Shown piece after piece: positions 4,377 to 51,286 of a DNA stretch of 64,000 nt. The DNA is taken from assembly GCF_014199195.1 (NCBI RefSeq), contig NZ_JACIJE010000011.1, positions 62,001 to 126,000 on the forward strand, given 5' to 3'. Numbering within the stretch: the stretch's first letter is position 1; each line of letters starts with the position of its first letter. The notes beneath the pieces are model-generated. The model saw only the letters and a program-made list of their open reading frames with translations. It made no database searches and was not told the origin of the DNA. Position numbers and translations under genes: made by a program. Source of the stretch: Neoroseomonas alkaliterrae. Lineage in GTDB: Bacteria > Pseudomonadota > Alphaproteobacteria > Acetobacterales > Acetobacteraceae.

Positions 4377-5242
4377 CGCGTCTGCACCACGCCGAAGATG
4401 CCCGAGGGGCGGAAGATGATGAAGGCAAAAAGGACGAAGAAGGAGACGCCTTCTGCCCACTGGGTGTCCACCACCGCGAGCGCCAGGCTTTCCGCGACGC
4501 CGAGCATCAGCCCGGCCAGCGCCGCGCCGCGCAGCGAGCCGACACCGCCGACGATCGTCGCCGCAATCGAGATCAGCATGGCATGGTGGCCGATCGCCTC
4601 GTTCAGCCCCGAGGTCATGGCCGTCAGGATCGCCGCCGGTGCGGCCAGCGCCGAGCCGAGCGCGAAGGCAAGCACCGAGAGCCGGTTGGAGGACAGGCCG
4701 TAGGTGCGGATCAGGTCCGGATTCTGCGCGAGGGCACGCAGCGCCACGCCCGCCGGGTGCCGGGTGAGGAACGCCGACAGCGCCGCGAACAGCGCCACGG
4801 CCACCCCGATCGCGATCCAGAAGACCGGGGCGAGGAAGACCTCGGGCAGCACTTCGCTGGCGCGGGAGAGTTCTGTGTCCACCGAGGCGAAGCCTCGCCC
4901 GGCGAGCATGCCGATGAGATTCTGCACCACCACCGCGACGCCGAACGCGGCGACGAAGACGGTGAAGAAGGAGCCTTCGTGCCGCTGGATAGGGCGATAG
5001 ACGAGGCGTTCCATGGCGATGCCGAACAGCGTCGCCACCGCGATCCCGCACAGGGCTGCCGCCCACCAGGGCAGGCCGCCGGTGAAGCCGAACAGGAAAA
5101 CATAGCCGGCGAGCGTGAAGGCCGTGCCGTGCGCGAAGTGGAAGATGCGGGTGGCGCCGAAGATCAGGGCGAAACCCGCAGCGGTCAGCGCATACAGGGC
5201 CCCGGTCTGGAGTCCCTGCAGCAAGAGCTGCAGCAGCAGCAC
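4373..5242 (-). CDS. livH: Branched-chain amino acid-type ABC transporter permease LivH
   Basis: A 289-residue inner-membrane permease beginning with GTG. It has the LivH hallmarks GLQTGALYALTAAGFALIFG near the N-terminus and ISIAATIVGGVGSLRGAAL in the C-terminal third. It starts four bases after the livK stop, and its own end overlaps livM, so livK-H-M-G-F are almost certainly one transcription unit. Confidence 0.92.
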   Translation of the reverse strand: MLLLQLLLQGLQTGALYALTAAGFALIFGATRIFHFAHGTAFTLAGYVFLFGFTGGLPWWAAALCGIAVATLFGIAMERLVYRPIQRHEGSFFTVFVAAFGVAVVVQNLIGMLAGRGFASVDTELSRASEVLPEVFLAPVFWIAIGVAVALFAALSAFLTRHPAGVALRALAQNPDLIRTYGLSSNRLSVLAFALGSALAAPAAILTAMTSGLNEAIGHHAMLISIAATIVGGVGSLRGAALAGLMLGVAESLALAVVDTQWAEGVSFFVLFAFIIFRPSGIFGVVQTR

Positions 5243-21968: not shown

Positions 21969-23678
21969 ATGACCTTCTTCGACCCGCGCGACGGCGACCT
22001 CGAGGACGACGCCTCCAGCACCTCGCGCCATTCGCTGCTCGGCCATGCCACGCACATGCTGCTCGAGATCAGCCTGCCCAAGCTCGCGCTGGCGGCGACG
22101 ATGCTGCTCGTGCTGCCCGCGCTGCTGCTCGGCGCCACGCCCAAGGCGGTGGTCTGGCTGACCGAGGCCGCCTGGCACGAGGCGGCGCGCCTCGGCCTCG
22201 CCGCCGCCGCGCTGGTCTTCGCCGCCGCGGCCGGCCTCGTCGCCTGGCGCTGGGGGCGGATCGCCTTCCTGATCGTCGAGCGGAACTTCTGGGCGCTGAA
22301 CGCGGCGCTGGTGCAGCCGCTCTACACCGCGCTGCGCGAAGCGGCGCGGCTGGCGCTGGAGCGCGCCCTCCCGGGGCGGGACCTCGCGGCGACCCGGCGG
22401 CTCGCGGGCCTGGGCGCGGGCGCGGCCATCGCGCTCGCCGCGGCCGGCATCGCCTGGTGGGCGGGGCCGCTGCCCTCCCTGCGCGTCGAGCGGTTCGGCG
22501 CCGATGCGGTGCTGGATGCCATCCGCAACGGCATCTGGGTGATCGCGGCCTATCTGACCTTCGGCGCCCCGGCCTGGAGCATCGCCGAGGCGCTGGCCGG
22601 CACGCCGCGGGATCTCGGCACGCTGCCGGAGGGCGAGGCGCGCTGGCGGGTGGCGCATCTGTCGGACATCCATGTGGTGGGCGAGGCCCATGGCTTCCGC
22701 CTCGAATGCGGGCGCGACGGCCCGCGCGGCAACGGGCGCCTCGACCGCGCCCTGGCGCTGCTGGCCGATGCGGATGCGGCCGCGCCGCTCGACTGGGTTC
22801 TGGTCACGGGCGACATCACCGATGCCGGCCGCAACGCCGAGTTCATCGCCTTCGAGGAATGCCTCGCGCGCCAGCCCGGGCTGCGCGATCGGGTGGTGAT
22901 CATCCCGGGCAACCACGACGTGAACATCGTGGACCGCGCCAATCCGTCGCGGCTCGAACTGCCGGTCGCGCCCGGAGGCGCGCTGCGGCGGCTGCGCTTC
23001 CTCGCCGCCATGGCGCGGCTGCAGGGCGATCGCGTGCATCTGGTGGAGCGCGCGACCGGCCGCGCGGGGCCGACGCTGAATGCCTGGCTGGCGGCGGAGC
23101 GGCGCGGGGAGAGGCTCGCGCGCTTCATGGACCAGGGCGGCCTCCGCGCGGGCTTCGCGGCGCGGCGGCTGTGGGGCGAGGTGTTCCCGCTGCTGGTGCC
23201 GCCCCGCACGCCGGACGGCCTCGGCCTGGTGCTGATGGATTCCAATGCGGAGACGCATTTCTCCTTCACCAATGCGCTCGGCCTCGTCGGCATGGCGCAG
23301 TGCCGCGCGGCGGAGGCGGCGATGCGCACCGAGCCCGCGGCGCGCTGGCTGGTGCTGATGCACCATCACCTGGTGGAATATCCGCGGCCGGGCGCGCCCT
23401 TGGCCGACCGCATCGGCACGGCGCTGGTGAACGGGCATTGGGTGCTGGGGCGGCTCAGGCGGCTGGCCCCGCGCATCCTGGTGCTGCACGGGCACCGGCA
23501 CATCGACTGGGCGGGGCGCAGCGGCGGCCTGCGCATCCTCTCCGCGCCATCCCCGGTGATGGGGCGGCCCGATGAGGCCGGCGGCTTCTGGATCCAGCGC
23601 CTGGCACCGGGGCCGGAGGGCGGGCTCGCGCTGCTGGCGCCGCGGCGGGTGGTGGTTCCGGGCGGATCGGGAGGCTGA
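21969..23678 (+). CDS. Membrane-anchored calcineurin-like metallophosphoesterase
   Basis: A 569-residue protein with about four hydrophobic segments in the first 205 residues (35-55, 75-93, 147-165, 188-203) and a C-terminal phosphoesterase domain. Metal-site motifs are complete and in order: LSDIHV (D233, H235), TGDITD (D282), PGNHDVN (N315, H316), MHHH (465-467) and HGHRH (507-511). The domain is probably cytoplasmic or periplasmic depending on topology. Its stop codon lies inside the first hairpin of the 23.7-kb repeat. Substrate unknown. Confidence 0.82.
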   Translation: MTFFDPRDGDLEDDASSTSRHSLLGHATHMLLEISLPKLALAATMLLVLPALLLGATPKAVVWLTEAAWHEAARLGLAAAALVFAAAAGLVAWRWGRIAFLIVERNFWALNAALVQPLYTALREAARLALERALPGRDLAATRRLAGLGAGAAIALAAAGIAWWAGPLPSLRVERFGADAVLDAIRNGIWVIAAYLTFGAPAWSIAEALAGTPRDLGTLPEGEARWRVAHLSDIHVVGEAHGFRLECGRDGPRGNGRLDRALALLADADAAAPLDWVLVTGDITDAGRNAEFIAFEECLARQPGLRDRVVIIPGNHDVNIVDRANPSRLELPVAPGGALRRLRFLAAMARLQGDRVHLVERATGRAGPTLNAWLAAERRGERLARFMDQGGLRAGFAARRLWGEVFPLLVPPRTPDGLGLVLMDSNAETHFSFTNALGLVGMAQCRAAEAAMRTEPAARWLVLMHHHLVEYPRPGAPLADRIGTALVNGHWVLGRLRRLAPRILVLHGHRHIDWAGRSGGLRILSAPSPVMGRPDEAGGFWIQRLAPGPEGGLALLAPRRVVVPGGSGG

Positions 23679-23805
23679 TACCCTGCGGACAAAGGTCGAT
23701 CCTTTGTCCGCAGGGTATCAGGATTTGGTTCCGCGCGCGGCCGCCCCACCAGCCCCGCGCGCCATGCAAGCGGGCGAAAGGCCAAACCGTTCGCCCGCTT
23801 GCATG
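23675..23805. repeat. Two-hairpin dispersed repeat element, copy 1
   Basis: A perfect 21-bp inverted repeat with a 5-nt loop (arms 23675-23695 and 23701-23721) is joined by a conserved core (23719-23763) to a second perfect 16-bp inverted repeat (23763-23778 and 23790-23805). The core contains its own GCGCGCGG/CCGCGCGC self-complementarity. The reverse complement recurs at 51142-51263. The first hairpin includes the stop codon of the phosphoesterase gene, so it can also serve as its terminator. Confidence 0.9.
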
Positions 23806-23917
23806 AGACGGAAGCACCCTGCCCGCCGCACCACCGGCGGGCAGGACTGGTTCGTCAGCGCAGGCGGGGGAACCCCGGCAGATCGCCCACCCGGGGCCTC
23901 CGCAGCCGGGCCACGCG

Positions 23918-49523: not shown

Positions 49524-50498
49524 GTGTCCAGCCCCACCGATCCTTCCCGCACGCCCGACTTCCTCAACCATGACCGCCCGCCGGTGCCCGATCTCGTGGT
49601 GCCGCGCGGCGTGCAGCCCTTCCACCTGCACCATAAGCCGGTGCGCGGGCGGCTGGTGCGGCTTGGGCCCCTCGCCGATGCGCTGCTGACCCGGCACGAG
49701 AACCACCCCGCCGTCACCAGGCTGGCCGGCGAGGCGCTGGCGCTGACGGCCGGCCTCGCGGCGGCGCTGAAGTTCCGCGGCTCCTTCTCCCTCCAGGCCA
49801 AGGGCGACGGGCCGGTGCCCATGCTGCTCGCCGACTGCACCGATGGCGGGGCGCTGCGCGGCTATGCGCGGCCCGATGCCGCGCGCTTCGCCGCCCTGCT
49901 GGAGGAGGAGGCCTCGCCCTCCGCCGCCCGGCTGCTCGGCAAGGGATACCTCGCCTTCACCTGCGACCAGGGCCCGGAGATGGACCGCTACCAGGGCATC
50001 GTCGCGATCGAGGGCGAGAGCCTCACCGCCATGACCGGCAGCTATTTCCGCACCTCGGAACAGCTCGCGACCCATGTCCACCTCGCCTGCGCCCCGACCC
50101 CGGCGGGCTGGCGCGCGGGCGCGCTGATCCTCGAACGGGTTGCGGGCGAAGGCGGCATCGCTGCCGGCATGGATGCCGAGGCGCAGGACGAGGCCTGGCG
50201 CACCGCCGTCGCGCTCGCCGCCACCCTCACCGATGCCGAGCTGCTCGACGACGCGCTGCCCGGGGAGAGGCTGCTGCACCGGCTTTTCGCGCTGGAGGGG
50301 CTTGCCCTCGACCGCGCCCGCGCCCTCTCCTACGGCTGCCGTTGCTCGCGCGCGCGGCTCGCGGGCGTGCTGTCCGGCTTCGGGGCGGAGGACCTCGACC
50401 ACATGGCCGAGGAGGGGACCATCACCATGACCTGCGAGTTCTGCAACCTGGGCTTCCGCTTCGACCGCGCGGAGATCCGCGGCGCGGCGCAGGGCTGA
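49524..50498 (+). CDS. hslO: Redox-regulated chaperone Hsp33
   Basis: A 324-residue holdase. The C-terminal zinc centre is complete: YGCRCSRARL then MTCEFCNLGF, the C-X-C and C-X2-C pairs that release zinc on oxidation. Substrate-binding core segments include FSLQAKGDGPVPMLLADC and GKGYLAFTCDQG. GTG 49524 is the start. It lies 69 bp after argF and is probably co-transcribed. Confidence 0.94.
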   Translation: MSSPTDPSRTPDFLNHDRPPVPDLVVPRGVQPFHLHHKPVRGRLVRLGPLADALLTRHENHPAVTRLAGEALALTAGLAAALKFRGSFSLQAKGDGPVPMLLADCTDGGALRGYARPDAARFAALLEEEASPSAARLLGKGYLAFTCDQGPEMDRYQGIVAIEGESLTAMTGSYFRTSEQLATHVHLACAPTPAGWRAGALILERVAGEGGIAAGMDAEAQDEAWRTAVALAATLTDAELLDDALPGERLLHRLFALEGLALDRARALSYGCRCSRARLAGVLSGFGAEDLDHMAEEGTITMTCEFCNLGFRFDRAEIRGAAQG

Positions 50499-50503
50499 GG
50501 GCC

Positions 50504-51139
50504 ATGGCGCTGCCGCGACGCGCCGCGCTCGGCGCCCTTCTCGCCACCGCCGCCTGCGGCGGGCGGCAGGAACCGCCGCCGGCACCGGCGCGCCCGCCCT
50601 CCTATGCCCATCTGACCCCGCTGCGCCTTGCCGTCGCGCGCATCGAGGTCATCCCCCCGACCGACCCGGCCGCCACGCGCACCATGCCGCCCGCGCCGCT
50701 CGCCCCGGCGGAGGTGGTGCGGATCATGGCCGAGGACCGGCTCTCCGCGGCCGGCGGGCCCGGCCATGCCCGCTTCCTGACCCGGGCCGCGACGCTGACG
50801 CGCGAGACCACCGCGGCCGGCGGCGTCTTCACCTCCGGCAGCGAGCGCATCACCTGCATCATGCGCTGCCGCCTCGAGGTCCTGACCGAGGAGGGCGGCC
50901 CGGCCGGCTTCGCCGAGGCCGAGGTCCGCCGCACCGCGGTGCGCCCCATGGGCAGCCCGGCCGAGCGCGCCCGCGCCGCCGAGGAGGTCGTGCGCCAGGC
51001 CGGGGACGAGCTGAATGTCGAGTTCGAGTTCCAGCTCCGCCGCAACCTGCGCGCGCTGATCCTGCCCCCGCCCGGCGCGGCGCCCGCCGGGACGCCGGGC
51101 GAGGGAACGCCCGCGCCGGTGATCGAGCCTGCCGGCTGA
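50504..51139 (+). CDS. Hypothetical lipoprotein
   Basis: A 211-residue predicted lipoprotein: lipobox LLATAAC ends the signal RRAALGALLATAAC. The mature protein has LRLAVARIEVIPPTDP, two cysteines at ITCIMRC and a long helix near 155-175, ending in a proline-rich tail. It resembles small outer-membrane-associated lipoproteins of alphaproteobacteria; no named family. It starts five bases after hslO. The dispersed repeat begins three bases after its stop. Confidence 0.7.
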   Translation: MALPRRAALGALLATAACGGRQEPPPAPARPPSYAHLTPLRLAVARIEVIPPTDPAATRTMPPAPLAPAEVVRIMAEDRLSAAGGPGHARFLTRAATLTRETTAAGGVFTSGSERITCIMRCRLEVLTEEGGPAGFAEAEVRRTAVRPMGSPAERARAAEEVVRQAGDELNVEFEFQLRRNLRALILPPPGAAPAGTPGEGTPAPVIEPAG

Positions 51140-51141
51140 TG

Positions 51142-51263
51142 CCAGCGGGCGAAAGGTTTGACCTTTCGCCCTCTGGCGCGGCGCGCGGGGCTGGTGGGGC
51201 AGCCGCGCGCGGAACCAAATCCTGCTACCTTGCGGACAAAAGTTGATCCTTTGTCCGCAGGGT
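51142..51263. repeat. Two-hairpin dispersed repeat element, copy 2
   Basis: This is the reverse complement of the 23675-23805 element. A 16-bp inverted repeat with one mismatch (51142-51157 and 51161-51176), the core (51180-51224, 44 of 45 bases identical to copy 1), and a 14-bp hairpin with one G-T-type pair (51227-51240 and 51250-51263) follow in that order. In the first hairpin an A-T pair of copy 1 is C-G here, a compensatory change. It lies between the lipoprotein stop and ridA. Confidence 0.88.
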
Positions 51264-51286
51264 CTGAGCCCGAGGAAGGAACCGCC

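Follow-up and report, generated by a model that had tools for sequence, protein, structure and literature searches.

A probable MITE-like transposable element with hairpin ends, mostly seated on stop codons in Neoroseomonas alkaliterrae

A 64,000-nucleotide stretch of the Neoroseomonas alkaliterrae genome (contig NZ_JACIJE010000011.1, positions 62,001 to 126,000; hereinafter the window; 73.1% GC) carries two non-coding segments with near-identical cores, each at the 3′ end of a gene, raising the question of what kind of element they represent and how they came to occupy these sites. The first-pass annotation had described them as a dispersed two-hairpin element, either REP/BIME-like or acting as RNA. 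The window sequence confirms both copies at their reported places, in opposite orientation and with 45-base cores differing at a single position (1/45). Their location stands but their extent needs correction: each complete element measures 125 bp (23679-23803 and 51140-51264), with a TGA direct repeat on each side, and with these repeats included the copies span 23676-23806 and 51137-51267. Likewise, the two flanking hairpins are present in each copy, but the core also folds as a hairpin, bringing the total to three; and the overlap with a stop codon, noticed earlier for copy 1 alone, extends to copy 2, the TGA stops at 23676-23678 and 51137-51139 each constituting one flanking repeat of their copy.

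On the forward strand, copy 1 follows a gene coding for a protein with a calcineurin-like phosphoesterase domain (21969-23678; PF00149, E-value 4.6e-12), whose stop, recognized by the stop test detailed below, is the left 3-bp target repeat TGA (23676-23678). The element itself (23679-23803; recovered by blastn and the covariance model) comprises a left end hairpin of the form TACC...GGTA with a 17-bp stem and a 5-nt loop (23679-23717), a linker read from the sequence (23718-23732), a core hairpin common to other genera (23733-23762) and a right end hairpin delineated by folding (23765-23803), followed by the right 3-bp target repeat TGA (23804-23806). Copy 2 is inverted (51140-51264, reverse strand; core hairpin 51181-51210) and lies downstream of a forward-strand gene that matches no Pfam family and whose start codon is unsettled (50342-51139); the TGA stop of this gene (51137-51139) is again a target repeat, with the second TGA at 51265-51267. 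Both copies fold far more stably than shuffled sequences (z = -9.7 for copy 1 and -8.0 for copy 2). Just downstream of copy 1 there is another GC-rich inverted repeat (window 23815-23850), perhaps the gene's own terminator.

The element is not confined to two places, as had first appeared: the family occupies at least 85 in the 4.2 Mb genome. A whole-genome search, which the first-pass annotation had proposed for the core, found many further copies, with copy 1 recovering at least 74 matches in blastn (40 of 143 first-look candidates scored). A covariance model, likewise proposed there, was built from 26 aligned copies of the same genome and retrieved at least 139 matches (150 of 11774 candidates scored), which fall into at least 85 clusters of overlapping matches. 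A core pattern allowing up to 3 mismatches occurs 61 times, and its reversed control is absent (0 occurrences). Reading a copy from left to right, a TNA repeat precedes the left hairpin, which a linker of about 15 nt joins to the 30-nt core hairpin; the right hairpin and an identical TNA repeat follow. The stem of the left hairpin starts with TACC (or TGCC) and closes at GGTA (GGCA), and both end hairpins set in immediately next to the target repeat. The spacing between target repeats is 125 bp in most well-preserved copies, and this unit codes for no gene. A shorter class of about 85-89 bp lacks the right hairpin and varies in its junctions; its members are presumably palindrome deletions, for which differing junctions are expected. 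The loops fall into 21 types, among which TCGAT is found in 4 copies and its inverted form ATCGA in 5.

The flanking triplets point to transposition. We read them at set positions of the model, without imposing a pattern, in the 26 best or in all 71 copies, and compared them with 10000 shuffles. Among the 26 best copies, TNA stands on the left in 26/26 and on the right in 21/26, and the two triplets are identical in 20 (shuffles: mean 12.0, maximum 18). Across all 71, the left triplet is TNA in 62 and the right in 36, the right ends being frequently decayed, and 30 pairs are identical (shuffles: mean 19.5, maximum 26). A stricter pattern with TNA required at both ends, which tests the middle base only, recognized both ends in 38/71 copies and dropped the 33 with an unrecognized end; 34 of the 38 pairs match (TGA 27, TCA 6, TTA 1; 10000 shuffles: mean 23.7, maximum 32). 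A pattern of the same kind was applied to related groups, each with 5000 shuffles, and matching pairs were found in 29/31 copies of Elioraea (shuffle maximum 26), 12/16 of Acidocella (maximum 11), 8/10 of Hyphomicrobiaceae (reached by 15 shuffles), 6/6 of a UBA8620-like group (reached by 28) and 4/5 of a mixed group, where the result is not significant (reached by 494). The non-matching Acidocella pairs are TAA/TTA (twice), TCA/TGA and TTA/TCA. Single-strand transposition by Y1 enzymes is not expected to give such concerted target repeats.

Sites without the element bear on the same question. The two genes flanking copy 2 lie side by side in 14 relatives, and reading these loci by eye we found that 9 of the 14 keep the stop without the element, with the next start within about 45 bases of it (L131, L132, L134, L135, L136, L138, L140, L142, L144), the other five having other or longer spacers (L133, L137, L139, L141, L143). 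In two of the latter (L133 in G028 and L141 in G030), there are apparent remnants of other family elements at the stop codon of copy 2. An Elioraea genome harbors 33 copies that are 95-100% identical to one query, and their near-identity indicates that the family was recently active there. Left and right end arms are also alike within a family, agreeing at 5.36 of 9 positions vs 3.76 across families (permutation p=0.0001; 14 hand-chosen families).

The spread of the family among relatives is patchy. Blastn matches are found in 13 of 59 relatives (own genome included), all within the genus, whereas the core pattern reaches further, with at least 110 stretches in named genomes; genera among the matches listed include Neoroseomonas, Roseomonas, Plastoroseomonas, Elioraea, Acidocella, Rhodopila, Rubritepida, Hyphomicrobium and others, along with bins labelled Devosia, Hyphomicrobiaceae and Rhodobacteraceae. 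Among 385 genomes sampled evenly over the class, just 2, including that of N. alkaliterrae itself, contain the core at up to 2 mismatches, which rules out class-wide conservation; at that threshold, the four other genomes sampled from its own taxonomic family lack it. A plasmid collection yielded one weak core match, in Rhodovastum, with no transposase among the five adjacent genes. Some occurrences depart from the standard anatomy: in an Acidocella MAG (RAIPG19) and another record (L271, L303), two or three cores follow one another in tandem, spaced at a period of about 44 bp and lacking end hairpins; a single core is situated between same-strand genes for tRNA-Gly and tRNA-Tyr, perhaps in one transcript (L294, between 4179 and 4236); and elsewhere a left hairpin stands alone, with no core and palindromic through its flanking TAA/TTA (L244, minus strand near 5083).

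Across Acetobacterales and some Hyphomicrobiales relatives, the element keeps its core and both hairpins with stems that differ and yet remain self-complementary. To quantify this, end segments were cut from 24 hand-chosen representatives (19 left, 18 right). Most form one stem, starting within the first bases of TACC and closing at GGTA. The 7 nt after TACC are of 15 different sequences in 18 left segments, and they match the inner arm of their own segment at 5.7 of 7 positions vs 2.9 for those of others (18 of the 19 segments; L209 left out), the left segments L034, L069 and L298, whose inner anchor differs, scoring 0-1. The corresponding values for the right segments are 5.9 and 3.2 (15 of the 18 together with that of copy 1; L088, L233 and L209 left out). 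With no anchor imposed, all 19 left segments give 6.6 for own and 4.8 for cross comparisons, and 17 of the 19 reach 6 or more vs 17% of the cross pairs. A comparison over 14 nt, a window too long for the short stems, gives 10.7 vs 7.4 on the left and 9.8 vs 6.5 on the right. Thus, the arms differ between families but match their own partner, indicating that elements which spread retain their end palindromes.

Taken together, these observations argue that the element is a non-autonomous, MITE-like transposable element, a reading to which we assign a probability of roughly 0.86. Like MITEs, it is short (125 bp), devoid of a transposase gene, dispersed in high copy number, extragenic and bounded by a target-site duplication and similar terminal arms, here TACC/GGTA terminal inverted repeats with family-specific arms. 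Unlike them, its ends are complete hairpins with a family-specific stem, a 30-bp core is common across genera, and no parent insertion sequence was found in the own-genome sequence searched. An ordinary MITE requires neither hairpins at both ends nor a core that is invariant, and this part of the anatomy is left unaccounted for, as is the core's slower decay, described below. Mechanistically, a transposase acting in trans would cut at TACC/GGTA and join the element to a TNA target staggered by 3 bases. Since TAA and TGA are themselves TNA sites, the duplication would restore the stop upon insertion there, no gene would be harmed, and such insertions would survive. The end hairpins and the core may serve as cis signals for transposition, given that both are retained by the family across genera even as individual genomic copies decay.

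The predicted enzyme would be a DDE-family transposase with TNA targets, the nearest published rule being that of the IS1031 group of IS5, which is described as having a TNA target and a 3-bp repeat (PMC12016507). Our element shares this 3-bp TNA target duplication with the IS1031 group but differs from it in that its ends begin with TACC rather than the GAACCTG given there for ISLrh, the single member compared (PMC12016507), and in that no such transposase is tied to it. All 82 left-end sites in the assembly (up to 2 mismatches; some small contigs read as N) lie inside copies, so the assembly shows no autonomous element bearing this left end; free ends of either side are absent from 488,723 bases of overlapping loci of the same genome. 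PF13586 has three matches in the genome. Of two IS5-type genes inspected as candidate partners, on contigs C33 and C23, one has other ends and one is without clear terminal repeats, and neither was retained. We also considered target choice through pairing of a base inside the hairpin with the middle base of TNA, which fits N. alkaliterrae and Elioraea by eye but not Acidocella or Hyphomicrobiaceae, and was dropped.

Most copies in this genome sit on stop codons. We mapped the copies relative to stop codons, as the first-pass annotation had suggested, by asking whether an open frame of 60 codons or more, with third-position GC typical of a gene, ends exactly at the repeat. Among the first 63 of the 71 copies, the flanking TGA or TAA is exactly a gene stop in 55, 49 at the left repeat and 6 more on the opposite strand at the right repeat (the raw tally of 7 on the right includes C2:230976, already counted on the left). 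By comparison, 56 of 1065 TGA triplets in the window pass this test; for those with a preceding C, the count is 30 of 337. Outside coding sequence, a crude gene call counts 32 stops vs 213 other TGA sites, and 19 vs 74 for C-preceded TGA; as this call misses genes, the expected share of stop codons is put roughly at 0.2-0.45. Against an expectation of 0.32-0.45, 55/63 has a p-value between 1e-19 and 3e-12, given the crude gene calls. In other groups, the share differs: 18/31 Elioraea copies pass (p=0.002 vs 0.32), 17 with the right end and 1 with the left, as do 1/16 in Acidocella and 2/10 in Hyphomicrobiaceae, the gene test being weaker in these last two; the orientation of the element toward the gene accordingly flips between genera. 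The plainest reading is that the target is TNA, including TAA and TGA, and that in a compact GC-rich genome the harmless TNA sites are often stops. By sitting exactly on a stop codon, the element can thus spread without breaking genes. Because the share of stops varies between the genome at hand, Elioraea and Acidocella, TNA targeting combined with selection in GC-rich genomes probably explains the pattern.

Two alternatives assign a more specific cause to this seating. In one, the transposase would seek out translation stops or termination sites as such, beyond mere TNA; the large excess over the rough expectation would be in keeping with it, as would the 18/31 share in Elioraea, where the copies are near-identical. 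The low counts in Acidocella and Hyphomicrobiaceae speak against it, within the limits of the gene test there, and selection against other sites can itself raise the share of stops. We therefore regard such a directed enzyme as unlikely. The other alternative, that of a 3′-end RNA module (a terminator or an mRNA-stabilizing stem) whose spread or retention is due to what it does to the upstream transcript, possibly as a second role atop mobility, might also draw upon the 55/63 copies that start or finish at a stop codon, and has to be weighed on the conservation of pairing and of the core.

The pairing evidence points both ways. The A-T pair of copy 1 and the C-G pair of copy 2 in the outer hairpin, which had been taken as a compensatory change, do exist (alignment columns 97/129); in 26 copies these columns hold C-G in 21, A-U in 1, unpaired bases in 3 and a gap in 1. 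The A-T form is hence private to copy 1 and gives no evidence of maintained pairing, and we rejected it as proof of selection on an RNA. Over the 26 copies, 86.3% of the cells are paired vs 85.3% in shuffled alignments (5 of 500 shuffles as high). Three of five pairing measures lie above nearly all of the 500 shuffles, counting this one together with two-sided cells (7 at least as high) and the covariation score (8), while the number of pairs with two-sided change and that of further pair types are reached by 77 and 107 shuffles, respectively. Covariation among the copies of this genome is thus weak.

The core hairpin decays more slowly than the rest. In the 26 copies, mismatches amount to 4.9% in the core and 13-15% elsewhere. 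G/C columns decay more slowly than A/T columns, and base composition, first considered as the full cause, accounts for part of the difference, but the G/C columns alone still differ: their identity in core, left and right hairpin is 0.960, 0.881 and 0.906 in the top 26 copies, 0.942, 0.902 and 0.870 in a set of 37 long copies selected through the left end, and 0.925, 0.887 and 0.829 in all 71. Change in the core G/C columns is thus lower than in those of the hairpins by a factor of about 1.5 to 3. Constraint, the way the copies were found or alignment errors are possible causes of this slow decay. Further, six relatives (G009, G010, G018, G020, G021, G032; loci L063, L071, L072, L065, L067, L064) share an old copy that has lost its end hairpins in three (G009, G010, G018) and kept the core with few changes in 6/6. 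Judging from their translated ends, we take the flanking genes to code for a substrate-binding protein-like product, whose stop lies at the copy, and a permease-like product. This placement recalls the REP between malE and malF of Escherichia coli, a stem-loop that likewise separates a binding-protein gene from a permease gene; the two sequences are not known to be related, and any function of our element is putative. Given the slower decay of the core and its retention in the old copy where three relatives lost the hairpins, there may be a secondary function.

The left hairpin and linker also score as terminator-like, with 2 overlapping sites vs 0.1 in shuffles, the score coming from the left hairpin with GATTTGGTT; no T run follows the right hairpin. 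Against Rfam, the segment 23500-24000 has 11 matches, none of which reaches the gathering score. The RNA module is further opposed by the Elioraea copies, which face their genes with the opposite end (17 right, 1 left), an end without a T run, and by Acidocella, where just 1/16 copies pass the stop test. As a general explanation, the RNA processing or termination module of the first-pass annotation is not supported, with pairing only slightly above shuffled and orientation flipping between genera, and we consider it improbable; what survives of it is the slower core decay, the terminator-like left hairpin with linker, and the one old copy keeping the core.

The comparison with REP/BIME sequences holds in outline, as the element is palindromic, extragenic and present in high copy, lies at the 3′ ends of genes and has a linker framed by two end hairpins; like GTAG REPs, whose termini overlap stop codons (PMC3733652), its termini supply stop codons. 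It does not hold in the RAYT sense: the check for a RAYT gene proposed earlier gave no Y1_Tnp match in the genome, and 34 of 35 genomes of the genus, the copy-rich ones included, have none either (one match, in G027). A REP/REPIN moved by a RAYT tyrosine transposase on single-stranded hairpins is consequently very improbable, this absence of Y1_Tnp from the own genome and copy-rich relatives, the want of a GTAG or CGTC tag (representative ends being TACC/TGCC...GGTA/GGCA) and the 3-bp TNA duplication varying in concert at both ends leading us to reject it.

Returning to the MITE-like transposon, the literature searched, mostly outside subscription papers, yielded no earlier description of the element, and a search with the letters of the core gave unrelated work. 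We accordingly present it as a new family of hairpin-ended MITE-like elements, ordinary as a non-autonomous transposon but set apart by end hairpins that are maintained, a core that hardly varies and insertion at stop codons. More speculatively, and with the odds rather against it, the family might form a separate class of hairpin-ended mini-transposons, whose transposase would read folded or palindromic ends together with the core, prefer TNA at stops and seed 3′-end core hairpins that some lineages may keep as a regulatory stem in an operon.

For the biology of these bacteria, the family exemplifies a simple route by which a compact GC-rich genome can be filled harmlessly: target TNA, land on a stop, and let the duplication restore it. 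Hairpins kept by structure, a slow-decaying core and no visible transposase together pose a testable question on the enzyme that moves the element. At the same time, the family provides natural presence/absence tests of the effect that a new 3′ hairpin has on a gene, and the binding-protein-like/permease-like locus with the old copy is the best place to seek a function.
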